This document shows, one piece after another, positions 1,052-60,647 of a DNA stretch of 64,000 bases. Both the position numbers and the translations under genes were made by a program. The DNA comes from Prescottella agglutinans. Lineage in GTDB: Bacteria; Actinomycetota; Actinomycetes; Mycobacteriales; Mycobacteriaceae. Numbering within the stretch: position 1 is the stretch's first letter; each line of letters opens with the position of its first letter. The notes beneath the pieces were generated by a model, which was not told the DNA's origin, searched no databases, and saw only the letters and a list, made by a program, of their open reading frames with translations. The stretch covers positions 186,001-250,000 of the forward strand of contig NZ_RKLP01000005.1 in the NCBI RefSeq assembly GCF_004011865.1. Direction: 5' to 3'.

Positions 1052-2347
1052 ATGACCAGCACCGTCACCCCGTCACAGGATATCGAATTCGCAACGCGGG
1101 ACCGGATCTCGTCCCTGCAGCTCGAGCGCCTCCAGTGGTCGCTGCGCCACTCCTACGAGAACGTCCCGCACTATCGGAAAGCGTTCGACGACGCCGGGGT
1201 CCACCCCAGCGATCTGAAGGACCTCGGCGACCTCGCGAAGTTCCCGTTCACCACGAAGGCAGATCTGCGGGACAACTACCCGTTCGGAATGTTCGCAGTG
1301 CCGCAGGATCACGTGTCACGAATTCACGCCTCGTCGGGAACGACGGGCCGTCCCACTGTGGTCGGGTACACCGCGACCGACCTCGACAACTGGGCCGACC
1401 TTATTGCGCGTAGCCTTCGCGCCGGCGGCGTGCAGCCGTCCGACAAGGTCCACGTCGCCTACGGGTACGGACTGTTCACCGGTGGGCTCGGCGCCCACTA
1501 CGGCGCGGAACGGCTGGGCTGCACGGTCATTCCGATGTCGGGAGGGATGACCGAGCGGCAGATCCAGCTGATCGAGGACTTCCGTCCGGACGCGATCATG
1601 GTCACCCCGTCGTACATGCTCACGATCGTCGACGCGATGCTCGCCAAGGGAATCGATCCGGCCGGAACGTCACTGCGCACGGGCGTCTTCGGAGCGGAGC
1701 CGTGGACCGAGGAGATGCGCGGCGAACTCGAGCAGCAGTTGGGTATGGACGCCGTCGACATCTACGGACTGTCCGAGGTCATGGGTCCTGGGGTCGCGAT
1801 GGAGTGTGTGGAAACCAAGGACGGCCTTCACATCTGGGAGGACCACTTCTATCCGGAGGTGATCGACCCGGTCACCGGCGAGGTGCTGCCCGACGGTGAG
1901 GAGGGCGAACTCGTCTTCACCTCGCTCACCAAGGAGGCGATGCCGATCGTTCGCTACCGCACCCGCGACCTCACCCGACTGCTACCGGGCACCGCGCGCA
2001 CGATGCGCCGTATGCAGAAGGTGACCGGCCGAACCGACGACATGATCATCCTGCGCGGGGTCAATCTCTTCCCGACGCAGATCGAGGAGCTCATTCTCGC
2101 GGTGACCGGTCTGGCTCCCCAGTTCCAGTGCGTTCTCGACCGCCCCGGCCGCATGGACGAGCTGACCGTCCGCGTCGAGTCCCGGCCGAACAGCTCGACT
2201 CACGAGGCCGATCAGCAGGCCGGCAGGCTGCGGCAGTTGGTGAAGGATCGCATCGGTGTCACCGTCGCGGTGGAGGTCCTGTCCCCGGGGAGCCTGGACC
2301 GATCGATCGGCAAGGCCCGGCGCCTGATCGACAATCGACCTTCCTGA
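1052..2347 (+). CDS. paaK: Phenylacetate-CoA ligase PaaK
   Basis: Activates phenylacetate to phenylacetyl-CoA with ATP, the entry step of the aerobic phenylacetate pathway. The 431-residue length is usual for the family. The AMP-binding loop SSGTTGRP is at residues 94-101, followed by the DIYGLSE region near residue 235 and the hinge motif GRTDDMIILRG near residue 326, where PaaK-type ligases differ from other adenylating enzymes. It follows paaE on the same strand and ends just before a strong terminator shared with the convergent TetR gene. Cytosolic. Confidence 0.93.
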   Translation: MTSTVTPSQDIEFATRDRISSLQLERLQWSLRHSYENVPHYRKAFDDAGVHPSDLKDLGDLAKFPFTTKADLRDNYPFGMFAVPQDHVSRIHASSGTTGRPTVVGYTATDLDNWADLIARSLRAGGVQPSDKVHVAYGYGLFTGGLGAHYGAERLGCTVIPMSGGMTERQIQLIEDFRPDAIMVTPSYMLTIVDAMLAKGIDPAGTSLRTGVFGAEPWTEEMRGELEQQLGMDAVDIYGLSEVMGPGVAMECVETKDGLHIWEDHFYPEVIDPVTGEVLPDGEEGELVFTSLTKEAMPIVRYRTRDLTRLLPGTARTMRRMQKVTGRTDDMIILRGVNLFPTQIEELILAVTGLAPQFQCVLDRPGRMDELTVRVESRPNSSTHEADQQAGRLRQLVKDRIGVTVAVEVLSPGSLDRSIGKARRLIDNRPS

Positions 2348-2353
2348 AAATAG

Positions 2354-2388
2354 CTGGGGCGCCTCGGATCCGATCCGAGGCGCCCCAG
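2354..2388. terminator. Bidirectional terminator between paaK and the TetR gene
   Basis: Perfect 17-bp inverted repeat (CTGGGGCGCCTCGGATC and its complement) with a one-base loop, 7 bp after the paaK stop. It separates two convergent genes, so it can end both transcripts. Confidence 0.85.
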
Positions 2389-2423
2389 TTCTCGTCGGTC
2401 TGCCCGCCCCGGGAACCCCGGGG

Positions 2424-3032
2424 TCAGGCCCTCATCCCGTCGAAGGTCAGCGCGACTACCGCGTCCGCGAGCTCGGCGACCGATTCGCCCCCGCGCGGCC
2501 GGTACCACTCGATCAGCGAGTTGACCATCCCGAACACCAGCCGGCTCGTGAGGGCCGGATCGATCCCCGGCCTGAGGTCGCCTTCCTCGGCGGCGGCCAC
2601 CACCAGATCACTGACGAAGGCATCGAATTCCCGGCGGCGCGCGAGGGCACGTCGTTCGACTGCCGTGTTCCCACGAACCCTGAGAAGCAATGTCACGTAG
2701 GGAAGCTCGGTCACGAGCACCTCGACGCTTCGCCGCACCAGGTACTCGAGTCGATCGATGGACCGACCGCTCGTCACCTGATCTTCGGTCGTGACCGCGA
2801 AGAGCGCGTTGAGGGCCCGGGCCAGCGCGAGCTCCAGGAGCTCGGCCTTGCCGGACACGTGGTGATAGATCGACGACTTCGTGATGCCGAGCCGCTGGGC
2901 AAGCGCCTCCATGCTGGTGCCGTCGTACCCCTTGTCGTTGAACACCTTCACCGCAACGGCGAGCAACGAGTCGAGATCGTATCCCGGTCGCCCGGGCGAC
3001 CCCGTTCTTCGGGCTGGACCTGCCGCCGCCAT
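2424..3032 (-). CDS. TetR-family regulator, probably PaaR-like repressor of the paa genes
   Basis: A 202-residue DNA-binding protein with an N-terminal helix-turn-helix (MEALAQRLGITKSSIYHHV, about residues 41-59) and a helical C-terminal ligand domain. The ATG at 3032 has an AAGGAA ribosome site 8 bases upstream. It is convergent with paaK at the end of the paa operon, the usual place for the actinobacterial phenylacetyl-CoA-responsive repressor. A perfect palindrome 62 bp upstream of the start suggests autoregulation. The ligand is inferred from context only. Confidence 0.75.
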   Translation of the reverse strand: MAAAGPARRTGSPGRPGYDLDSLLAVAVKVFNDKGYDGTSMEALAQRLGITKSSIYHHVSGKAELLELALARALNALFAVTTEDQVTSGRSIDRLEYLVRRSVEVLVTELPYVTLLLRVRGNTAVERRALARRREFDAFVSDLVVAAAEEGDLRPGIDPALTSRLVFGMVNSLIEWYRPRGGESVAELADAVVALTFDGMRA

Positions 3033-3093
3033 CTCGCGCGTTCCTTCCAGGACGTGGACACCCCGCCTCAGAACGTGCGGCTCGACGTCAGCC

Positions 3094-3109
3094 TACCGAA
3101 GGTTCGGTA
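3094..3109. promoter_or_regulatory. Palindromic operator upstream of the TetR gene
   Basis: TACCGAA-GG-TTCGGTA is a perfect dyad with 7-bp arms, 62 bp upstream of the TetR start. It has the size and symmetry of a TetR operator. If this protein is PaaR, the same motif should recur before the paa operon outside the window. Confidence 0.6.
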
Positions 3110-3155
3110 ATCCCCGTGGGCCGACCGCCGGATCAGGATGCCCCCGGGCACGACA

Positions 3156-3198
3156 ACGACCACTCCCCCCGCGCTGTGCACGCGGGGGGAGTGGTCGT
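3156..3198 (-). terminator. Terminator of the SDR/cupin operon
   Basis: 18-bp perfect inverted repeat (ACGACCACTCCCCCCGCG and its complement) with a 7-base loop, 15 bp past the stop of the SDR gene. No T tract follows; placement and stability support termination. Confidence 0.7.
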
Positions 3199-3212
3199 GC
3201 CGGGCCGCGGGG

Positions 3213-3995
3213 CTACGGCAGCACCGCGCCGCCGTCCACGTGCAGAGACTGCCCGGTGACGTTGGCCGCGTCGGCCGAGAGCAGGTACGCGACGGCTCCG
3301 GCGACGTCCTCGACGGTCTGCGGGCGCTTCATCGGGATGAGCTGGTCGACCATCGCGCCGAAGATCTGCTCGGGCGCCACCCCGGCGAGGGCCGGGTCGT
3401 GCTCGGCGAGCCAGCCGGCGGACTGTCGCCACATATCCGTCCAGATCAGTCCGGGCAGAACCGCATTGACGCGAACGGAGGGGGCGAGCGCACGGGCCGA
3501 CGACTGGGTCAACGCTAGCACCGCCGCCTTCGAGGAACCGTAGGCGGTCAGCAGCTCGTGCCCGTTCCGGGCCGCGATCGAGGAGAAGTTGACCACGGAC
3601 CCTTCGCGAGCACGCGTGGCCAGCTCCGCGGCGAAGGCCTGAATGGCGAAGAAGACCCCGCGGACGTTGACCGCGTATGTCTTGTCCCAGGTGTCCACGT
3701 CGAGTGCGTCGTACGGCCAGAATCCGCCGAGGCCGGCCACGTTGACGAGACCGTCGAGGTCGTCGTGCGCGGCGAAGGCTTCCGCGACGGCCGCCTGCAA
3801 CGCACCCGCGTCGCAGATGTCCACCACGTGGGTGGTCACCGTCACCCCGCGGGACCCCACTGCGGCAGCGGTTTCCGCCAGCCGCTCCTTGTCGATGTCG
3901 AGCAGTGCCACACCCCGGCCGTCGGCGGACATCCGTTCGGCGACACCGCGCCCCAGGCCGCCTCCGGCACCCGTGACGAGGACCGCGCCCGCCAT
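3213..3995 (-). CDS. Short-chain dehydrogenase/reductase next to a cupin
   Basis: NAD(P)-dependent oxidoreductase of 260 residues. The cofactor loop TGAGGGLG is near residue 8, the NVAG motif follows, and the catalytic set is Ser in FSSIAARNG and Tyr-Lys in AYGSSK. The C-terminal LHVDGGAVLP is typical of classical SDRs. Its ATG directly follows the TAG stop of the cupin gene, so the two are co-translated and likely act in one pathway, probably reduction or oxidation of a hydroxyketone-like compound. The substrate cannot be read from sequence. Confidence 0.85.
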   Translation of the reverse strand: MAGAVLVTGAGGGLGRGVAERMSADGRGVALLDIDKERLAETAAAVGSRGVTVTTHVVDICDAGALQAAVAEAFAAHDDLDGLVNVAGLGGFWPYDALDVDTWDKTYAVNVRGVFFAIQAFAAELATRAREGSVVNFSSIAARNGHELLTAYGSSKAAVLALTQSSARALAPSVRVNAVLPGLIWTDMWRQSAGWLAEHDPALAGVAPEQIFGAMVDQLIPMKRPQTVEDVAGAVAYLLSADAANVTGQSLHVDGGAVLP

Positions 3996-4580
3996 CTAGC
4001 GGCCCGTCCGAGCAGGCAGATGCGCGACCGCGTCGTTCGCCGCGGCGAGGTCGTAGAGCAGGTCGTGCGTGATGACCCCGGCGACGGTGCCATCCTCGTT
4101 GTATCCGACGATCGGACCGTGGAAGATGCCGAACATCAAGGATTCCACCTCCTGCTTAGGCAGGTGGACGATGCCGGCCGGTTCGTAGATGTAGTGGTTG
4201 GGGCCGATGGACTCCGCCTCACCCTCGTACGCCCAGCGGCCGAAGATGTTGAACGCCTCCGCGGCGCCGCAATGCATGTGCAGCGGGGCCTGCGCATTCT
4301 CCGCCACGTACAGCAGGATCGAGGCCGCGCCGGTCGTCTCGTTGATGTTCAGGAGCTTGAAAGACGTACCCGGCATCGGGAACGGGGTCCACGGGATGTC
4401 GTCGCAGTTGTTGACCCGGGAGGCGAGACTGAGCGTCGGCCCGGTCACCGGGGAACTCGCGCGGGCGAAGACCTCGGCGACCGGAGCGTTGGACTGCGGG
4501 TCGATCTCGGGACCGGCCAGTTGCGGGCGGATCGGCTCGACCACACGAGCATCGTCATGGTGAGTGGCGTTGACAGACAT
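3996..4580 (-). CDS. Cupin protein of the 2,4'-dihydroxyacetophenone dioxygenase-like type (copy A)
   Basis: Single-domain cupin of 194 residues. Likely metal ligands are His101 and His103 (HMH), Glu108 and His139 (AGIVHLP), a 3-His/1-Glu set as in mononuclear iron or nickel dioxygenases. An in-frame ATG at 4613 exists, but AGGAGG 7 bases before 4580 fixes this start. Its core (IPWT..PMPGT.FKLL) matches the cupin at 8287-8820, and each copy sits with a dehydrogenase and a LysR gene. A role in C-C cleavage of a hydroxy- or diketone is an inference from the family; a sensor role (ChrR-like) is the alternative. Confidence 0.7.
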   Translation of the reverse strand: MSVNATHHDDARVVEPIRPQLAGPEIDPQSNAPVAEVFARASSPVTGPTLSLASRVNNCDDIPWTPFPMPGTSFKLLNINETTGAASILLYVAENAQAPLHMHCGAAEAFNIFGRWAYEGEAESIGPNHYIYEPAGIVHLPKQEVESLMFGIFHGPIVGYNEDGTVAGVITHDLLYDLAAANDAVAHLPARTGR

Positions 4581-4644
4581 CGGATTTCCTCCTGGATTCG
4601 GGGACTCACCCATGCTCCGATGTGGCGGCCGTCACGTCCATGAC

Positions 4645-4677
4645 GTATTCTCACCCGACCGTTAGACGAATACCTAA
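4645..4677. promoter_or_regulatory. Possible LysR binding dyads in the divergent promoter
   Basis: Between the divergent cupin and LysR genes lie GTATTC-N17-GAATAC (4645-4673) and overlapping TTAG-N8-CTAA (4662-4677). LysR proteins usually bind such interrupted dyads between divergent genes. Neither is a perfect T-N11-A box. Confidence 0.4.
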
Positions 4678-4688
4678 GGTCGTGCACG

Positions 4689-5591
4689 ATGGATCTGAAT
4701 CTACGGCTCGTGCGCTACTTCGTGGCTGTCGCCGACGCCGGGACCTTCACGAAAGCAGCTGAGCAACTGCACATTGCGACGCCGTCACTGAGCCAACAGG
4801 TGCGCAAGCTCGAAGAGACGCTGGGCGTCTCACTGCTCGAGCGTGACCACCGCGGAGCTCGTCTCACCGAAGCCGGGCGGGACTTCCTCGAGGAGAGCCG
4901 GGCGCTGTTGGTGGCCGCCGAATCTGCGGTGGGCGCGGCCCGTCGCCACAAGCGCAGCTCGTCCGGGAAGGTGCGCCTCGGATTCCTTGCCGGCGGCGCC
5001 GGGGAGCTGACCCGGCCGATCGTCGACGAGTTCCATCGACGAGAACCCGACGTGGAACTGGAACTGACACAGCTGGCGTGGGGGGACGAGCTGTCGGCCT
5101 TGACCTCCGGTCGGGTCGACATGGTCGTCGCCCGCCCGCCTCTCGAGTCGCACCCCCGGCTACGCCGGGTCGTTCTGTTCGAGGAGCCCCGTGTCCTGCT
5201 GATGGCACACGACCACCCGTTGGCCCGCCGACGGAAGCTACGAATCGCCGACCTCGCCGACGTCGTTCAGGTGGACACCCGAGAAGGGACCCGAGACTGG
5301 CGCAACTGGTGGTCGATCGATCCGCGGCCGGACGGCACACGTCCCACCTACGGCCCCATGGTGAACAGCATCGAGGAGATGGTCCAGGTCGTCGCGACCA
5401 CCGATGCGGTCGCGATCACCGGTGCAGGCGTTGCCAGCCTGTTCCGGCGAGCGGACACCACCTCGCGACTCATCGCGGACGCCGCGCCGTCGACCGTCGA
5501 GCTCGTCTTCCTGGCCTCGGACATGCCCAGCGCCGTCGAACGTTTCGTAGCGGTTGCGCTCGGACTGAGCGCAGTCCTCGGTACCCGCTGA
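4689..5591 (+). CDS. LysR-family regulator (copy A)
   Basis: A 300-residue activator with an N-terminal winged helix (FTKAAEQLHIATPSLSQQVR, residues 20-39) and a periplasmic-binding-like effector domain. Divergent from the cupin/SDR operon with 108 bp between starts, the classic arrangement for a LysR protein controlling its neighbour. Its effector domain holds the stretch DPRPDGTRP, also found as NPRPDGTRA in the LysR protein at 7321-8241, so the regulators as well as the cupins are paralogues. Confidence 0.88.
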   Translation: MDLNLRLVRYFVAVADAGTFTKAAEQLHIATPSLSQQVRKLEETLGVSLLERDHRGARLTEAGRDFLEESRALLVAAESAVGAARRHKRSSSGKVRLGFLAGGAGELTRPIVDEFHRREPDVELELTQLAWGDELSALTSGRVDMVVARPPLESHPRLRRVVLFEEPRVLLMAHDHPLARRRKLRIADLADVVQVDTREGTRDWRNWWSIDPRPDGTRPTYGPMVNSIEEMVQVVATTDAVAITGAGVASLFRRADTTSRLIADAAPSTVELVFLASDMPSAVERFVAVALGLSAVLGTR

Positions 5592-6159
5592 CCAGGCGGG
5601 TTCCCATGCGCCGTCAAGCGCCACGGTGCTGGAACTGACCGGCCGCCTCCCGGCATGCGCTACGCACCTCGTCCAGACGACGGCGAACGAACGGACGACC
5701 GTCGTGGCGACACCGAGACTCCGGCGAACCGGGCAGCCGGCTCCTGCGAAGCCTGCAAAGGGAGATAGCTACACCAACACCCCCCGACGCGCTCCGCCCT
5801 TGATCCACCCCGATCCCCCTGGCCTCCCTCGAAGGCAGAGCCCGCCAAGAAGTCCGTTCCCCTGCACATCTTCCCGAGCATTTAACAAACGCCCAATAGA
5901 TTCAATAATTACTACAATCCCAATTGTACTAAGGTTCAAAATTAACACCAGTCAACCAATTTGCTAACGTGGCCACTGGTATCGATATTTCGACCATGTG
6001 GCGAAGAATCACATTACTGCCCAGTAGATTTGCGGAATCGTTAACACTCTTGATCGGCACGTAATAGCGTGTCGTGCGTTGCAAGGGATCCGACGGCCTA
6101 ACCTTGCAACGACCACCCCCTAGAACAGGCCGCCATATGGAATCCAGAGGTGAATCTGT
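5592..6159. other. Long intergenic region with an AT-rich block
   Basis: 568 bp with no convincing gene. 5881-5940 drops to about 30 percent GC in otherwise strongly GC-rich DNA, and low GC continues to about 6060. A 10-bp inverted repeat (CGTTGCAAGG at 6077-6086, CCTTGCAACG at 6102-6111) sits 50 bp before the next start. This looks like the promoter region of the small-gene cluster and could be a target of an AT-binding silencer such as Lsr2. An open frame at 5626-5967 has proline/arginine-rich, gene-unlike composition. Confidence 0.5.
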
Positions 6160-6577
6160 ATGAGCATTCGGAACAAGGCAGCACTCGCCGGCGTCCTCGC
6201 CGGCGCCGCAGCGATGACCGCCCTCGGCGCGGGCGTCGCCCAGGCAAGGTAATCCGCAGCGGCCAACCGCGGACTACCAAATGTGTGGAAACGTCCTCAG
6301 TGGTGGTGCCGGGGTTGGTGGCGTTTCCGTCACCGGCACTCTGAGCACCGGCGGGACCTACACCGCCACCACGGCCGCTGACGGCGGGTACTGCCTGCAG
6401 GGCAACGCAGCCATGAAGACCGCCGTTCTCGGCGGCGCCAAGGTCACGTTGGTCGGCAACTCCGGAGCGGTCAACTTCGGAACGTGGGGGACGTCGGGTA
6501 TCGGCACTCTCGACTTCTTTACCCATCAGGATTCGGTGTACACCAATTCTGCCTACGGATTCAACGGCACTCTCTGA
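6160..6577 (+). pseudogene. Secreted protein gene interrupted by a +1 frameshift
   Basis: Frame 1 from ATG 6160 (AGAGGTGA ribosome site) encodes a clear Sec signal peptide, MSIRNKAALAGVLAG then AAAMTALGAGVAQA, and stops at 6252. The next frame is open from before 6242 to 6577 and continues with a mature-type, Gly/Thr/Ser-rich sequence (GNPQRPTADYQMCGNVLSGG) of about 110 residues with two Cys (MCGN and GYCLQG) that could form a disulfide. Deleting one base near 6246 (GCAAGGT to GCAGGT) joins them as AQA followed by GNPQ, a good signal peptidase site. Either the gene is broken, the sequence has an error, or expression uses frameshifting. The family is not recognised. Confidence 0.65.
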
Positions 6578-6592
6578 TCCGTTTGCACGCTG

Positions 6593-6632
6593 TTCATTGC
6601 CCCTCGGCATCCCTTTGCCGGGGGGCAATGAA
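6593..6632 (+). terminator. Hairpin between the secreted protein and the small ORFs
   Basis: Outer arms TTCATTGCCCC (6593-6603) and GGGGCAATGAA (6622-6632), with an inner CGGCA/TGCCG stem. No T tract. It may be a partial terminator or an mRNA-stabilising element that sets the expression ratio within the cluster. Confidence 0.55.
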
Positions 6633-6672
6633 TGGTGACTCATGCAGCGACATACCTCTGGAAAGGAAATAC

Positions 6673-6783
6673 ATGTCCTACGATCTCCTCGCAGCCCTGC
6701 GCACATTCGTGATGGGGATGGCGCCGGTCCTCGGCGGATCTCTCACAGGCCTGAACACCATGTCCGGCAACGGCTACTCCTAG
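6673..6783 (+). CDS. Small ORF 1, 36 residues
   Basis: Starts at ATG 6673 behind AAAGGA with five bases spacing. The peptide begins MSYDLLAALRTFVMGMAPVL and ends GNGYS: a hydrophobic or amphipathic N-terminal half, a Gly/Ser/Asn-rich tail, no Cys and no signal peptide. First of four similar-sized ORFs, each with its own ribosome site. In related mycolata, tandem signal-less peptides (PorA/PorH of Corynebacterium) form outer-membrane channels; that comparison rests on size, composition and arrangement only. No homologue recognised. Confidence 0.55.
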   Translation: MSYDLLAALRTFVMGMAPVLGGSLTGLNTMSGNGYS

Positions 6784-6808
6784 CAGCACGAAATCCTACG
6801 GAGGAACG

Positions 6809-6928
6809 ATGCTCTCGATTCAGAACGCAACCAGCTCTCTCGGCCAGACCGTCGAGCAGATGCTCCCGATCCTGTTCCTGGTCCTGGTGCAGCAACCCAT
6901 GACGCTGTCCCTGGGCACACCGGCCTGA
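6809..6928 (+). CDS. Small ORF 2, 39 residues
   Basis: ATG at 6809 follows GGAGG by four bases, a strong ribosome site. The peptide starts MLSIQNATSSLGQTVEQ and has a central hydrophobic run (MLPILFLVLVQQP) long enough for a short membrane helix. No Cys and no signal peptidase site. It lies 25 bp after small ORF 1 and is probably co-transcribed with it. Unknown function. Confidence 0.55.
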   Translation: MLSIQNATSSLGQTVEQMLPILFLVLVQQPMTLSLGTPA

Positions 6929-6962
6929 CTCGGATAGCAACCAGCAGAAAGGAAGTATCAAC

Positions 6963-7079
6963 GTGGATTTCCGGCAGCTCTTGACAGATCTACTCCGGGT
7001 GGGGATGGGCTCGTGGATGGGTGGTGATTACACCGGTTCAGGCCGGCTCGGCACCGACTTCCTCAAAGCACTCTCGTAA
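6963..7079 (+). CDS. Small ORF 3, 38 residues, GTG start
   Basis: GTG at 6963 preceded by GAAAGGAAG. The peptide reads MDFRQLLTDLLRVGMGSWMG and continues with a Gly-rich middle (GGDYTGSG) and DFLKALS at the end. The N-terminal half could form an amphipathic helix. It lies 34 bp after ORF 2 and 9 bp before ORF 4. No homologue recognised; the start is chosen from the ribosome site. Confidence 0.5.
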   Translation: MDFRQLLTDLLRVGMGSWMGGDYTGSGRLGTDFLKALS

Positions 7080-7088
7080 GGAGACATC

Positions 7089-7205
7089 ATGCTCGGAAAG
7101 TTCTTCGACGGATCCCTCGACCTCGTCTATATCTTTGGCAACCTCACGTTGGTCGGCCTCTACACGGCGTCGAGCCAGGGTGGCGGCTGGCAGAGCCTCG
7201 GCTGA
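7089..7205 (+). CDS. Small ORF 4, 38 residues
   Basis: ATG at 7089 follows AAGGAG with five bases spacing. The peptide starts MLGKFFDGSLDLVYIFGNLT, remains hydrophobic, and ends in a Gly/Ser/Trp-rich tail (QGGGWQSLG). Last gene of the cluster, 26 bp before a strong terminator. No Cys, no signal peptide, no recognised family. Confidence 0.55.
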   Translation: MLGKFFDGSLDLVYIFGNLTLVGLYTASSQGGGWQSLG

Positions 7206-7231
7206 CAACCCTCGAGGCACGCCTAATGCAC

Positions 7232-7260
7232 AGAGCCCCCACCGGACAGGTGGGGGCTCT
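7232..7260 (+). terminator. Terminator of the small-ORF cluster
   Basis: Perfect 12-bp arms AGAGCCCCCACC and GGTGGGGGCTCT around a 5-base loop, directly after small ORF 4. It closes the transcript and separates it from the opposing LysR gene. Confidence 0.85.
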
Positions 7261-7320
7261 TGCGCTGCCGGCATTCCGGCCGACACCAGGTGGTCGCGCT
7301 CCTGTGACGAGCCCCAATCT

Positions 7321-8241
7321 TCACTCTGCCGGTGGCTCCATCGCTACATGGCGACAGGCCTGACCTATCGCATCCTGGAGCGTTGCCAGCTCCGGCCTTC
7401 GATTGCCCTCCAGAGTGCACAGGGTGAGCACGCTCGGGCTGATGTCGTCGATGGGCACGAAGCAGACCAGCGGATGGCGATAGTAGGTGGGCAGCGACTC
7501 AGGCGTGGTGGTGACCCCCGCGCCGGCGGCGACCGCTTCGAGCAGTTCCTCCACGGTCGAGACTGCAAGACTCGGTTCGGCTCGGGTGCCGTCCGGGCGC
7601 GGGTTCACCATCCAGAAATCGGTCCATTCCTGCGGCCCGCCGCTGCTGCTGATGAACGGCTCCGCGGCGATCTCGGCGAACCGGATCGACGCCCGGTCGG
7701 CCAACGGGTGGTCGTGGGCAAGCACGGCCACCCGTCGCTCGGACAGAATTCGCTGGCGCCGAACTCCCTCGGCTGGAAAGGGCTCCCGGACGAAGACTGC
7801 ATCGATGTCGCCGGCCAGCAGCGGAGCCAGTTGCTCGCTCCACTCGAGGTGGTGCAACTTCACGTGCAGATCGGGATCGGCGGAGCGGAGTCGATCCAGC
7901 ACGGCAGTCGTGAGCAGACCGGCACCGGTTGCCATGAACCCGATGTCGATGCTGCGACGGCCCAGACGGACCGATTCACGCCACCGCAGAAGAGTCTCGT
8001 TGGCGGCCACGACTGCGCGGGCTTGCGGGATCAGCGCGCGTCCGGCTTCGGTCAGCTCTACGTGTCGCGAATTGCGTTCGAAGAGAAGGAAACGCAGGTC
8101 CTTCTCCAACCGGGACACCTGCTGACTCAGCGCCGGCCCGGTCATGTGGAGCAGTGCGGCGGCGCGGCCGAAGTGCAGCTCGTCCGCCACGGCCAGAAAA
8201 CACCGAAGCGCCTGCGGCGAGACATACATGCTGCACCTCAC
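7321..8241 (-). CDS. LysR-family regulator (copy B)
   Basis: 306 residues with an N-terminal helix-turn-helix (GRAAALLHMTGPALSQQVSR, about residues 25-44) and an effector domain containing NPRPDGTRA, shared with the LysR gene at 4689. A second in-frame ATG at 8229 would shorten it by four residues. It lies 45 bp downstream of the cupin B gene on the same strand, so dehydrogenase, cupin and regulator form one operon here, whereas in module A the regulator is divergent. Confidence 0.87.
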   Translation of the reverse strand: MRCSMYVSPQALRCFLAVADELHFGRAAALLHMTGPALSQQVSRLEKDLRFLLFERNSRHVELTEAGRALIPQARAVVAANETLLRWRESVRLGRRSIDIGFMATGAGLLTTAVLDRLRSADPDLHVKLHHLEWSEQLAPLLAGDIDAVFVREPFPAEGVRRQRILSERRVAVLAHDHPLADRASIRFAEIAAEPFISSSGGPQEWTDFWMVNPRPDGTRAEPSLAVSTVEELLEAVAAGAGVTTTPESLPTYYRHPLVCFVPIDDISPSVLTLCTLEGNRRPELATLQDAIGQACRHVAMEPPAE

Positions 8242-8286
8242 ACGCCATCGGTTGGAGAATCGGTGTCAGGCTAACCGATTCGGCGG

Positions 8287-8820
8287 CTACCCGATCGCCT
8301 TCGCGTGCATGTCCTGCGACGGATCGGTGGCGTAGTCGACCAGCTGGAGTTTCTCGACGGCGTCGTTGTCACGCGCCATGTAGTAGTGCAGCCGGGCGTC
8401 GGCGACGACCGCGAGGCCTCCGTCCGGCAGGTAGCCGGCGATCGGGCCCTCGACCATGGCGATCATGACGCAGCCATCCGGGGCAATCGGCGTGTGTACT
8501 GCCCCGGCGACCTCGCAGGTGTACATGCCGGCCATGCCGGGATCGTCCTCCTCGTAATAGAACCCGCCTTCCAGGAGGTATGCCTGCACATTTCCCATAT
8601 GCCAATGCGGGGTGGCGACGGTGCCGGGATCCACTTTCAGGATGAGGGTGAACGCGCCGGTCACGAGATTGCAGTACAGCAGCTTGAATTGCGTTCCGGG
8701 CATCAGCCAGTCGGTCCATGGAATTTCGCCGGGGTCGACGAATTCCTTTCGCGCGCCCTTCGGCGTGACGCCGGGGTCGGTCATCCAGAATGTCGGTCCG
8801 AGGTTCGAGGCAGCGGTCAT
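8287..8820 (-). CDS. Cupin protein of the 2,4'-dihydroxyacetophenone dioxygenase-like type (copy B)
   Basis: 177-residue single cupin. Candidate metal ligands are His72 and His74 (HWH) and His109 (AGAVHTP); the usual Glu position is Gln79, unlike copy A. It shares IPWTDWLMPGTQFKLL with the equivalent segment of the cupin at 3996-4580. It lies 40 bp after a zinc alcohol dehydrogenase gene related to 2,3-butanediol dehydrogenases, so a hydroxyketone or diketone substrate is plausible. Function is inferred from family and context. Confidence 0.7.
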   Translation of the reverse strand: MTAASNLGPTFWMTDPGVTPKGARKEFVDPGEIPWTDWLMPGTQFKLLYCNLVTGAFTLILKVDPGTVATPHWHMGNVQAYLLEGGFYYEEDDPGMAGMYTCEVAGAVHTPIAPDGCVMIAMVEGPIAGYLPDGGLAVVADARLHYYMARDNDAVEKLQLVDYATDPSQDMHAKAIG

Positions 8821-8860
8821 GGGTTTCTCTTTCTGTTCCGTGGGAGGGGGCTTCGGTTCG

Positions 8861-9919
8861 TCAGCCGACGGCCGTCATGTCGACCAGGATCTTGATGGCT
8901 GTCTGGTCCCGGAGTGGGCCGAACCCGTCGGTGATGAGGTCCTCGAATGCGATCGTCTGCACCCAACTGTCCAGCGGGTACGCCCCACGAGCCATGAACT
9001 CGATGGTCTCCGGGTAGTCGCGGCAGTACGCGATGGAGCCGACGATCTCGCACTCGTTGAACAGGATCTCGGTGGGGTTGAACTCGACCGGTTTCTGATG
9101 CACCGCGACGACCACGACTCGGCCGTGTCGAGCGGTCGAGCGGACTGCATTCAGGAAAGTGGCCGGCACGCCGGCCGTCTCGAACGATCTCGCGACACCG
9201 GCTCCATCGGTGTGCGCGCGCAGTTCCGCGACGACATCCGTCTCGTTGGGATCGATGACCTTCGTGGCTCCCACCGCTTCAATCGCCGCGCGCCGGGCCG
9301 CCGACGGCTCGATCACGGTGATGTCCTCGATGCCTATGGCCCTCAACGCCAGAAACACCCCGATCCCGATGGGACCGGCCCCGTGGACGGCGACGCTGCT
9401 GTCCGGAGCGACATCGCCTCGGCGCACGGCGTGCAGGGCCACGGCCAGGGGTTCGATCAACGCTCCCTCGCGGGTGCTCATCCCGTCGGGCAGCCGATAG
9501 ACGTGATCGGCATCGACGACTGCATACTGACCGAGCCCACCCCCGCCCGCCCAGCTGTAGCCGACTGCGGCGATGCTGCTGCAGAGGTTGTACGAGCCGT
9601 CCAGACACGCCGGGCATCGTCGACAGTTGACGGTCGGTTCCACCGCGACGGCGTCGCCGACCGACAGCTCGTCGACACCTGCCCCTAGCGCCACGATCTC
9701 GCCGGAGAACTCGTGACCGAGGACGACCGGGACACTCACTCCGGTGAGAGGATGCGGGGTTATCGGCGCCATCATCGGCGCATGGAAATACTCGTGCAGA
9801 TCGCTGCCGCACAATCCATTGAAATGAACCCGAACTTTCACCTGACCAGGACCTGCAATAGGCTCAGGAATGTCCTCGAAACGGATATCCCCGACTCCGT
9901 GATAGCGGGCTGCTTTCAT
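8861..9919 (-). CDS. Zinc-dependent alcohol dehydrogenase, 2,3-butanediol dehydrogenase-like
   Basis: NAD(P)-dependent medium-chain dehydrogenase of 352 residues. It has the catalytic zinc site (GLCGSDLHE, GHEFSGE), a structural zinc loop with four Cys (CRRCPACLDGSYNLC), and the cofactor fold GAGPIGIG. The HAPMMAPITPHPLTG segment is characteristic of butanediol dehydrogenase-like members. The ATG at 9919, behind a GGAG, fits the family N-terminus MKAARYHGVGDIRFEDIPEP; an upstream in-frame start at 9988 only adds atypical residues. First gene of the operon with cupin B and LysR B. Confidence 0.85.
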   Translation of the reverse strand: MKAARYHGVGDIRFEDIPEPIAGPGQVKVRVHFNGLCGSDLHEYFHAPMMAPITPHPLTGVSVPVVLGHEFSGEIVALGAGVDELSVGDAVAVEPTVNCRRCPACLDGSYNLCSSIAAVGYSWAGGGGLGQYAVVDADHVYRLPDGMSTREGALIEPLAVALHAVRRGDVAPDSSVAVHGAGPIGIGVFLALRAIGIEDITVIEPSAARRAAIEAVGATKVIDPNETDVVAELRAHTDGAGVARSFETAGVPATFLNAVRSTARHGRVVVVAVHQKPVEFNPTEILFNECEIVGSIAYCRDYPETIEFMARGAYPLDSWVQTIAFEDLITDGFGPLRDQTAIKILVDMTAVG

Positions 9920-10265
9920 TCTTGGAACTCCTGCGCTCGAGAATCGGAATCTTTCCGACGTGACGCAGACAACAGTCGCACCGAACACGCGGGGAAGTCC
10001 AGGTACTTTCTTTCGCGAATCGATAAGCCGCGCTTACCGATCGGGACGAGCGCGCGCTTCTTCGGCCTGTCGGTCGATCGGCCGCGTCCACCGCCCTCCC
10101 CCGCGATTAGCGCACTCGACGCTTCGTGCACCCGTCCCCGGAACCGGCAAGTGCGCGAATCGCGAGGTGTGATCGAGGTCACCTCCGGTTGCGGAATGGC
10201 GGCGGCGGTGCCACCGTTGTAACCACAGTCTTTGAAGTTTCAACTACTTTCCTCTGGGAGTGCAC
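9920..10265. other. Divergent promoter region between dehydrogenase and YceI genes
   Basis: 346 bp with no convincing ORF. It contains the palindrome at 10227-10248 next to the YceI gene. Nothing else was recognised. Confidence 0.5.
10227..10248. promoter_or_regulatory. Palindromic operator before the YceI gene
   Basis: AGT-N2-TTGAA-N2-TTCAA-N2-ACT is symmetric about 10237/10238 and ends 17 bp before the YceI start. The spacing resembles MarR-type operators. No adjacent regulator gene is present, so the regulator lies elsewhere. Confidence 0.5.
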
Positions 10266-10820
10266 ATGACCACCGCCGCCACCACCCTTCCGAACCTGAC
10301 CGCCGGCACCTGGGCCATCGACCCCACCCACTCGACCGTCGGATTCGTGGTCCGGCACCTCGTGGTGAGCAAGGTCCGCGGCACGTTCAACGACTTCACC
10401 GGTGCCATCACGGTCGCCGAGGACGGCACCCCGTCCGTGCAGGCCGAGATCCAGGTCGCGTCGATCGACACCAACAACGAGCAGCGCGACGGCCACATCA
10501 AGTCGGCCGACTTCTTCGACGTCGAGCAGTTCCCGACCGCGAAGTTCGTCTCCACCGCCGTTCGTCCGGCCGGTTCGAACTTCGTCGTCGAGGGCGAGTT
10601 CACGCTCCACGGCGTGACCAAGCCGGTCGAGTTGGCGCTCGAGTTCCTGGGCGTCAACCCGGGCATGGGCAACGGTCCGGTCGCCGGTTTCGAGGCCACC
10701 ACCACCATCAACCGCAAGGACTTCGGCATCAGCATCGAGATGCCGCTCGAGGGTGGCGGCGCCGTCGTCGGCGACAAGATCACCATCAACCTCGAGATCG
10801 AGGCCGGCCTCCAGGCCTGA
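10266..10820 (+). CDS. YceI-family lipid/isoprenoid-binding protein
   Basis: 184 residues forming the YceI-type lipocalin-like barrel that binds isoprenoid or other amphiphilic molecules. Typical motifs are WAIDPTHSTVGFVVRHLVVS near the start, then GHIKSADFFDVEQFPTAKF and FTLHGVTKPVE. No signal peptide, so it is probably cytosolic, unlike the E. coli periplasmic protein. The ATG at 10266 follows GGGAG at good spacing; a GTG six bases earlier is less likely. Monocistronic, with its own terminator and operator-like palindrome. Confidence 0.9.
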   Translation: MTTAATTLPNLTAGTWAIDPTHSTVGFVVRHLVVSKVRGTFNDFTGAITVAEDGTPSVQAEIQVASIDTNNEQRDGHIKSADFFDVEQFPTAKFVSTAVRPAGSNFVVEGEFTLHGVTKPVELALEFLGVNPGMGNGPVAGFEATTTINRKDFGISIEMPLEGGGAVVGDKITINLEIEAGLQA

Positions 10821-10831
10821 TCTCCCCCTAC

Positions 10832-10878
10832 AACGCACCCGCTGCGGCCACCTCCCCCGGTCGCAGCGGGTGCGTTTT
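10832..10878 (+). terminator. Rho-independent terminator of the YceI gene
   Basis: Perfect 15-bp arms AACGCACCCGCTGCG and CGCAGCGGGTGCGTT with a 15-base loop, followed by two more T. Confidence 0.88.
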
Positions 10879-11102
10879 CGATATCCCCTCGTCTGGTCGG
10901 ACGAATCGGCTCAGGCAGTTCGCCGCGCGCAGCCCGGCACCTGCGCACCCGGTCACGGTGCGGTTCGTCGGGACATGGTCGGTGTCATCATGAGGAAGCG
11001 TCCGGACCGATGACTTTTCGACCGGCGGCCGGTCTACCCGGAGGAACCGCCGATCGCCGTGCGCACCAGGGCGCGACGTCACTCGACCACGAGAGGACCG
11101 AC

Positions 11103-11549
11103 ATGGCTGTCACAACCGAGACCATGCGACCGTTCGAGACCATCATCGGACGATGGATGACATCGGGCACCGTGCTCGACGAGGACGGGAAGGCTGTCGC
11201 GACGATCGACGGCACCGACGAGTACGAGTGGATGCCCGGCGGGAAATGGATCGTCCATCGTGTGGACGTGATGATGGGCGACGACCACGTGCACGCGCTG
11301 GAACTCATCGGCGAGCACGACGCCGAGACCGGCACGTACGCCATGCGGGCGTTCGACGGCTCCGGCGCGTACGGAACGATGACCGCACACCTCAACGCGG
11401 ACGGCTCATGGACGTTCCTGGGGGACGGGATGCGCAGCACCCTCTGGCCGTCCACGGATAGATCGTCCATGACGGCGCTTTGGGAACGACAGGGTAGCTC
11501 CGGCAGTTGGATCCGATGGATGGACATGCGCTTCGTCGCAACAACATAG
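11103..11549 (+). CDS. DUF1579-like protein
   Basis: 148 residues starting MAVTTETMRPFETIIGRWMT. The pattern of a short N-terminal helix, GRWMTSGTVLDEDG, then alternating strands with WMPGGKWIVHRVDV resembles the DUF1579 family of small beta-barrel proteins with unknown function. Start chosen at 11103 behind GAGAGGA; an open frame reaching upstream to 11010 lacks coding character. No signal peptide. Convergent with the rifampicin monooxygenase gene, 13 bp apart. Confidence 0.65.
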   Translation: MAVTTETMRPFETIIGRWMTSGTVLDEDGKAVATIDGTDEYEWMPGGKWIVHRVDVMMGDDHVHALELIGEHDAETGTYAMRAFDGSGAYGTMTAHLNADGSWTFLGDGMRSTLWPSTDRSSMTALWERQGSSGSWIRWMDMRFVATT

Positions 11550-11562
11550 GGGTCACCGGAAA

Positions 11563-15292
<3,730 letters not shown>

Positions 15293-60570: not shown

Positions 60571-60647
60571 AGCAGCCACTCCCCGGGGCTCCACCGCCCC
60601 TGCGTCACCGGAGTCGACCCTCGGCCCACTTGCGTGACGCCCACCAC

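Follow-up and report, generated by a model that had tools for sequence, protein, structure and literature searches.

Tiny leaderless genes in tandem behind a secreted-protein gene: a conserved operon and possible mycomembrane complex of Rhodococcus-type bacteria

What is made by genes of 36 to 39 codons that stand in a row behind a gene for a secreted protein? This question is raised by a stretch of 64,000 nucleotides of Prescottella agglutinans (hereafter the window), which comes from the chromosome of a 5.43 Mb genome of the Rhodococcus equi clade and holds four consecutive open reading frames (ORF1 to ORF4) of 36, 39, 38 and 38 codons. An original prediction, made from the sequence alone, had likened their organization to that of the tiny channel formers PorA/PorH of Corynebacterium and to multi-peptide leaderless bacteriocins, and had considered them the best candidate in the window for an undescribed system. 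The four ORFs were found where that prediction placed them, and they are real, conserved genes under purifying selection. As to their function, the reading that we favour, with a confidence that falls just short of even, is a leaderless multi-peptide complex of the mycomembrane that has a secreted partner and works like PorA/PorH without showing a sequence relationship to them.

The reality of the genes was established by comparison. Profiles of the four ORFs were run on six-frame translations of 15 loci, 14 of them distinct (L012 repeats L070). The full set, its order unchanged, is present in 12 other genomes, which belong to five genera, and on the plasmids R. qingshengii RQCS_2 (L110) and P. 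equi WH99 p1 (L133). Counted by locus, 12 of the 14 distinct ones hold the complete ordered set, each from a genome other than that of the window; L064 and L065 carry remnants of ORF4 alone, in two genomes that have full clusters. Where labels are needed, G001 is Prescottella defluvii, G003 P. equi DSM 20307 (locus L069), G012 P. subtropica, G090 R. tukisamuensis, G115 Rhodococcus sp. RD6.2 (L065) and G167 Rhodococcus sp. ARC_M6 (L064). The DNA of the region is matched at 77% in G001 and at 65% in G010. When the four ORFs of five loci were aligned by codon, all ten pairs had ratios of non-synonymous to synonymous substitution rates (dN/dS) of 0.13–0.36, with substitutions concentrated at third codon positions (e.g. 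41/21/86 by position between L070 and L110). This conservation, together with the dN/dS values, excludes chance ORFs, and neither a lack of conservation in related genomes nor a non-coding pattern of substitution (Ka/Ks), both of which the original prediction had named as outcomes that would speak against genes, was encountered. In G086 a run of G breaks the reading of ORF4 (L020, reversed strand, ~1962–1972; same place in L060) and the remaining conserved tail lies in another frame; the sequence may be wrong there, or the site may be slippery.

Among 401 genomes of the family, the ORF1 profile matched 11 at an expectation value (E) of at most 6.1e-5 and 12 more, weakly, at 0.0015–0.1; from these 23 genomes the 11 and G295 were followed, the other weak matches lying at E 0.026–0.1, and G295 showed no cluster on inspection. 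When 298 genomes at the level of the order (few from positive genera) were searched with the same profile, nothing convincing was found besides the window, the one weak match (G541) lying inside a frame of 810 amino acids (aa). The layout within the window is as had been described: each ORF has a ribosome site, all of them purine-rich, the intergenic gaps are short (25, 34 and 9 base pairs (bp) for ORF1-2, ORF2-3 and ORF3-4) and a single terminator-type hairpin closes the cluster (Table 1). The statement that no family could be recognized has likewise held as far as tested. Pfam gave no family for the four peptides, PF09203 included, and a match of ORF3 to PF05628 (E 0.12) was at chance level; no NCBIfam model matched up to E 10, and neither PHROGs nor PADLOC gave anything up to E 0.1. 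PDB sequence matches of ORF1 and ORF2 were rejected, nearly all being summed over designed or TALE repeats with no stretch passing alone and the remainder being weak single stretches, while the ORF3 and ORF4 profiles gave none at E 0.1.

Table 1. Coordinates of the cluster, its upstream elements and two remnant loci (positions in the window unless a locus is given).
Feature	Position	Strand	Details
ORF1	6673-6783	+	36 aa; ribosome site GGAAAGGAA
ORF2	6809-6928	+	39 aa; ribosome site GGAGGAA
ORF3	6963-7079	+	38 aa, GTG start; ribosome site GAAAGGAAG
ORF4	7089-7205	+	38 aa; ribosome site AAGGAGA; modelled helix 2-29 and looser Gly/Ser tail
Terminator-type hairpin closing the cluster	7232-7260	+	
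Strong RNA hairpin without T run, gap between secreted gene and ORF1	6580-6649	+	folding energy (dG) -48.1, z -7.4
Signal-peptide part of secreted partner gene	6160-6252	+	frame 1, ends at stop; intact in relatives
Mature two-cysteine part of secreted partner	6281-6577	+	frame 2; family profile A12 match 4.8e-25
Inverted repeat CGTTGCAAGG...CCTTGCAACG, leader of secreted gene	6077-6111	.	
Degenerate palindrome copy, candidate operator	5924-5939	.	4 mismatches, counted by eye
ORF4 tail at the RD6.2 site	L065 (G115:C5:90500-102500) ~6095-6163; window 5770-7140		
Decayed ORF4-like copy without other ORFs, ARC_M6	L064 (G167:C93) ~5960-6090	minus	

The gene in front of the cluster had been taken to encode a secreted protein starting at 6160. 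A signal peptide and a mature part do exist there, in two different frames and not in a single open one; the break may be a mutation or a sequencing error. The secreted gene lies near the cluster in 14 of the 15 loci, is intact in 12 of these 14, and in four loci precedes ORF1 by 9–13 bp. It is also frame-broken in P. equi DSM 20307 (L069, reversed strand, before ~5325). Both breaks fall after the signal peptide (at 6250–6280 in the window), apparently by different shifts, to judge from the reading frames, and the match of G002 to the secreted family is likewise split in two. For the mature protein a beta fold is predicted, possibly a sandwich like that of CarboxypepD_reg/prealbumin-like domains; the corresponding Pfam scores of the three proteins scanned reached at most 19.6 bits, below the cut-off of 32.3, and a PDB sequence search with the family profile gave no match at E 0.01. 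In a class-level search of 197 genomes (few from positive genera) the profile matched only the window, and one query from the family had no match among phage records. On the R. qingshengii plasmid the partner gene is present twice, the additional copy following immediately after the cluster (L110 9549–9980).

Searching with the secreted protein led to six more clusters, which are diverged and have four or five tiny ORFs each, and to one possible remnant, and a palindrome described below led to one additional diverged cluster. Seven genomes have the secreted family without a type A cluster: four of them have five-ORF clusters, two candidate ORFs are present in G074, and G258 has no recognizable tiny-ORF cluster. 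G199, with a match to the secreted family at E 1.9e-4, was left out of the cluster analysis. Within the diverged clusters, tiny ORFs were chosen by eye among ORFs with a ribosome-site-like motif; the choices are supported by the genome pairs G005/G002, G052/G025 and G012:C10/G006, and G012:C4 has no pair.

The palindrome, a 16-bp sequence (TTGTACTGCAGTACAA), is common to the upstream regions of several cluster loci. With at most one mismatch it was found at 12 places in six of the 14 Prescottella genomes (that of the window counted in), against none for the reversed control. Seven places are at tiny-ORF clusters (six clusters), four stand before a family of secreted proteins of ~230–300 aa (G003:C5, G004:C12, G006:C1:122820, G012:C34) and one lies ~500 bp before the gene of a protein with a SpaA_3 prealbumin domain; perfect copies occur in two of 201 family genomes. 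Within Prescottella, and there only, a probably shared regulation thus links the peptides with surface-type or secreted functions. A search of the window for the palindrome with up to three mismatches gave nothing; the degenerate copy of Table 1 may nonetheless act as operator, to judge from its letters. No description of the palindrome was found in the literature covered. The proteins of ~230–300 aa that follow it in L120, L113, L114 and L122 have no Pfam match above cut-off, and in L120 and L114 such secreted ORFs lie on both sides, with a second small secreted gene next in several of these loci, possibly a further unrecognized surface-protein locus.

The peptides themselves are 31–44 residues long in the four-ORF set and 29–65 in the diverged five-ORF clusters. 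As originally described, ORF1 to ORF4 lack cysteine and have no apparent signal peptide, which was judged from the sequence without a predictor; they are hydrophobic. Of 55 peptides, 53 carry no net charge or a negative one and the remaining two carry +1; they come from a set of 14 loci in which G244 (near-identical to G092) and the interrupted ORF4 of G086 were omitted. Alignment of this set leaves M1, L27, N28 and S31 invariant in ORF1, S3, T8, S10, L11, G12, P20 and G36 in ORF2, D9, F33, L34, L37 and S38 (the last residue) in ORF3, and, over 13 loci, M1, G23, A27, S28, G31, G33 and S36 in ORF4, i.e. at least one serine in each. The single helix predicted for ORF4 was modelled with a mean predicted local distance difference test score (pLDDT) of 80 and a predicted template modelling score (pTM) of 0.40. 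Amphipathicity is moderate (mean shuffle z of 1.7, 2.1, 0.9 and 1.6 for ORF1 to ORF4).

How far, then, does the comparison with PorA/PorH carry? The two Corynebacterium peptides share with the cluster that they are tiny, tandem, leaderless, Cys-free, acidic, fast-evolving and found in mycolic-acid bacteria. The proposed likeness stands for the bacterial group and for the size, charge and tandem order of the peptides, and also for their having no apparent signal peptide; it fails for a sequence relationship. Homology was rejected, as no family model or profile matched: the NCBIfam models pora_1, porH_1 and porH_2 did not match any of the four peptides up to E 10 (as controls, PorA scored 61.7 bits against a cut-off of 50 and PorH 29.9 bits on porH_2 against a cut-off of 30), and in profile comparisons with PorH and PorA alignments all eight pairs stayed at a probability of 1.3% or less, with profiles so short and shallow that a distant kinship might escape them. 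Since size, charge and group fit but the sequence does not, we write that the cluster works like PorA/PorH and not that it is one. PorA/PorH are moreover two peptides, whereas the cluster has four or five and a linked secreted protein, and while the cluster occurs at different sites and on plasmids, porH/porA have been described at one site, between the GroEL2 and PPK2 genes (PMC3792995). Similarly tiny, by description only, are PorACj of C. jeikeium (40 aa) and a channel protein of C. urealyticum, both reported to form cell-wall channels (PMC3792995, PMC5944148); PorACj is, unlike the four-gene cluster, the homo-oligomer of a single gene. The known channels of Rhodococcus, the MspA-family porins PorARc, PorARr and PorBRr (PF09203), are exported by Sec, unlike leaderless peptides, and those of R. 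ruber are reported to have 180 and 234 aa when mature (PMC9233653).

We favour a mycomembrane complex because all four ORFs are kept in order under low dN/dS across the 12 genomes and two plasmids, because the secreted gene is so regularly nearby and leads to further tiny-ORF clusters, because the palindrome is common to clusters and to genes of secreted or surface type, and because the peptides combine the absence of Cys, a neutral or acidic charge as in PorH and PorA (which are also acidic), a helix predicted for ORF4 and invariant serines. The four peptides (five in some diverged relatives) would be produced together and pass through the plasma membrane by some route that needs no Sec signal. 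Their hydrophobic part would insert them into the mycomembrane, where O-mycoloylation of the invariant serines would probably anchor or activate them, and they would form a hetero-oligomer, of which a channel is the simplest version, with the Sec-secreted two-cysteine beta protein as periplasmic or surface partner. The genome of the window has 25 matches to PF00756, 22 of them over the cut-off, a Pfam family that includes the mycoloyltransferases; these matches say only that candidates for such an enzyme exist. For PorA, PorH and ProtX of Corynebacterium, alpha-helical structure and O-mycoloylation have been reported; a hetero-oligomeric pore has been proposed for PorA together with PorH, and how these peptides get through the plasma membrane is described as unclear (PMC12632848, PMC11927696, PMC9671496); O-mycoloylation has been reported on serines among small residues within flexible stretches (PMC11066868). 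The strong hairpin between secreted gene and ORF1, which has a counterpart of similar shape and different sequence in relatives, may set the peptide-to-partner ratio. Somewhat more tentatively, the wider picture might be one of mobile, diversifying complexes of four or five leaderless components in the mycomembrane of Rhodococcus-type bacteria, each paired with a secreted beta-protein of its own and, within Prescottella, controlled by a single regulator that governs surface genes, and together forming a second, independently evolved class of tiny-peptide channels or surface structures that is exchanged on plasmids.

Several observations weigh against such a complex, beginning with the missing sequence relationship to PorA/PorH. 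The amphipathicity of the peptides is weaker than that of PorH (2.7) and PorA (2.5, both mean shuffle z), and the secreted partner is broken in two of the 15 loci and was not found near the cluster in one. Different chromosomal sites and plasmids are odd places for a main porin. There are two MspA-family porin genes elsewhere in the genome of the window, and the cluster is therefore not its only channel candidate. The distribution is also patchy: among the 401 genomes of the family, 14 were matched by the ORF4 profile at E <= 0.01, including one doubtful match, and G108 is counted among the 14 on its E of 0.0056. On this last point, a query with a single PorH sequence found matches in six of 61 genomes of the genus presumed to be Corynebacterium, probably because such peptides diverge fast, and patchiness alone is therefore no argument against a porin.

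The flanks of the cluster differ among genomes. In a blastp comparison of the ORFs called around the 15 loci, the secreted family alone spans most, other shared families joining two or few. Around the cluster of the window, ten larger ORFs (1052–13137) were assigned by Pfam to AMP-binding, TetR, short-chain dehydrogenase, Cupin_7 (two), LysR (two), alcohol dehydrogenase, YceI and FAD monooxygenase. Rhodococcus sp. RD6.2 has two LysR genes at this site that are nearly unchanged over the 60 residues compared and, between them, the last residues of ORF4 alone; the cluster was therefore deleted there, and this genome retains another one elsewhere. ARC_M6 has a decayed copy, and recombinase and Lsr2 genes lie near the cluster on the R. 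qingshengii plasmid. A mobile cassette of selfish or toxin-antitoxin-like nature, with tiny hydrophobic peptides that poison the host cell, would account for the different sites and plasmids and for the deleted and decayed copies. It is nevertheless a very improbable explanation, given the lack of any PADLOC match (no search aimed at an antitoxin was made), the co-conservation of four peptides with a secreted protein and a palindrome held in common with ordinary secreted genes.

The main functional rival of an envelope complex is a multi-peptide leaderless bacteriocin of the aureocin A70/garvicin KS type, directed against rival actinobacteria, in which case immunity would come from the secreted protein or from some other gene. 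Aureocin A70 and cereucin H are likewise four tandem leaderless peptides of ~30 residues, and the likeness drawn originally survives in gene number, size and tandem order, and in a plasmid location and patchy distribution that a bacteriocin would explain. It breaks down over charge and is weakened by the lack of recurring companion genes. Those two bacteriocins are cationic and come from other bacteria, and leaderless bacteriocins are listed with net charges of +2 to +9 (PMC6131525, Table 2), values to which none of the 55 peptides comes closer than +1. Secretion and immunity genes are reported as confirmed for aureocin A70 (PMC6131525), but no exporter or immunity gene recurs among the 15 flanks by blastp of called ORFs. 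The remark that no such gene is visible is true of the window, where Pfam found no transporter domain in the ten ORFs, and does not extend to L062, in which genes for an ABC-2 ATPase and a 670-aa membrane protein adjoin the cluster on the other strand (2930–5670), nor to the near-identical L063, which has the same pair by blastp. This pair is a possible exporter, and on the P. equi plasmid (L133) a gene for a C39-like peptidase lies 2.3 kb before the secreted gene; neither recurs, and the gene order is kept across genera. We therefore hold a bacteriocin to be rather unlikely. A surface coat or fibre, displayed together with the secreted beta protein in an adhesive, hydrophobin- or chaplin-like role and forming no channel, would fit the prealbumin-domain protein behind the same palindrome, and we give it a limited chance. 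Finally, many bacterial tiny proteins act on membrane complexes, and hydrophobic peptides with no apparent signal peptide might simply stay in the plasma membrane as regulators or assembly factors of such a complex. The association with a secreted protein, 9–13 bp away in four loci, and the palindrome common to secreted-protein genes make this improbable.

If a mycomembrane complex is the right answer, the implications reach beyond the window. In the literature covered, tiny leaderless outer-membrane channel peptides have so far been described only for Corynebacterium, where their exit route is reported as unsolved (PMC12632848); for Rhodococcus, titles and abstract openings of mostly open-access papers gave no account of tiny porins or leaderless bacteriocins. 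With another set of four or five subunits at hand, unrelated to all appearances, leaderless export and the determinants of O-mycoloylation could be studied by comparison. The cluster, a conserved tiny-protein operon without a curated family, would then count as a new form of leaderless mycomembrane peptides. It is a candidate, and no more than that, for the source of an additional anion-selective channel that earlier biochemistry reported in R. equi (cited in PMC9233653). Annotation has largely passed over such genes: two of the eight peptide genes in the two plasmid records are annotated (ORF4 on RQCS_2 and ORF2 on WH99 p1), by a PLSDB gene table that is stated to be incomplete, and multi-gene systems of 30–45-codon genes may thus be widely overlooked. 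Apart from the cluster, and unrelated to it, the single match of an RNA family search of the window at the gathering threshold lies at 60.6 kb, a hya RNA (Rfam RF02992) on the minus strand at 60573–60641 that scored 73.3 bits against a gathering score of 56.8.
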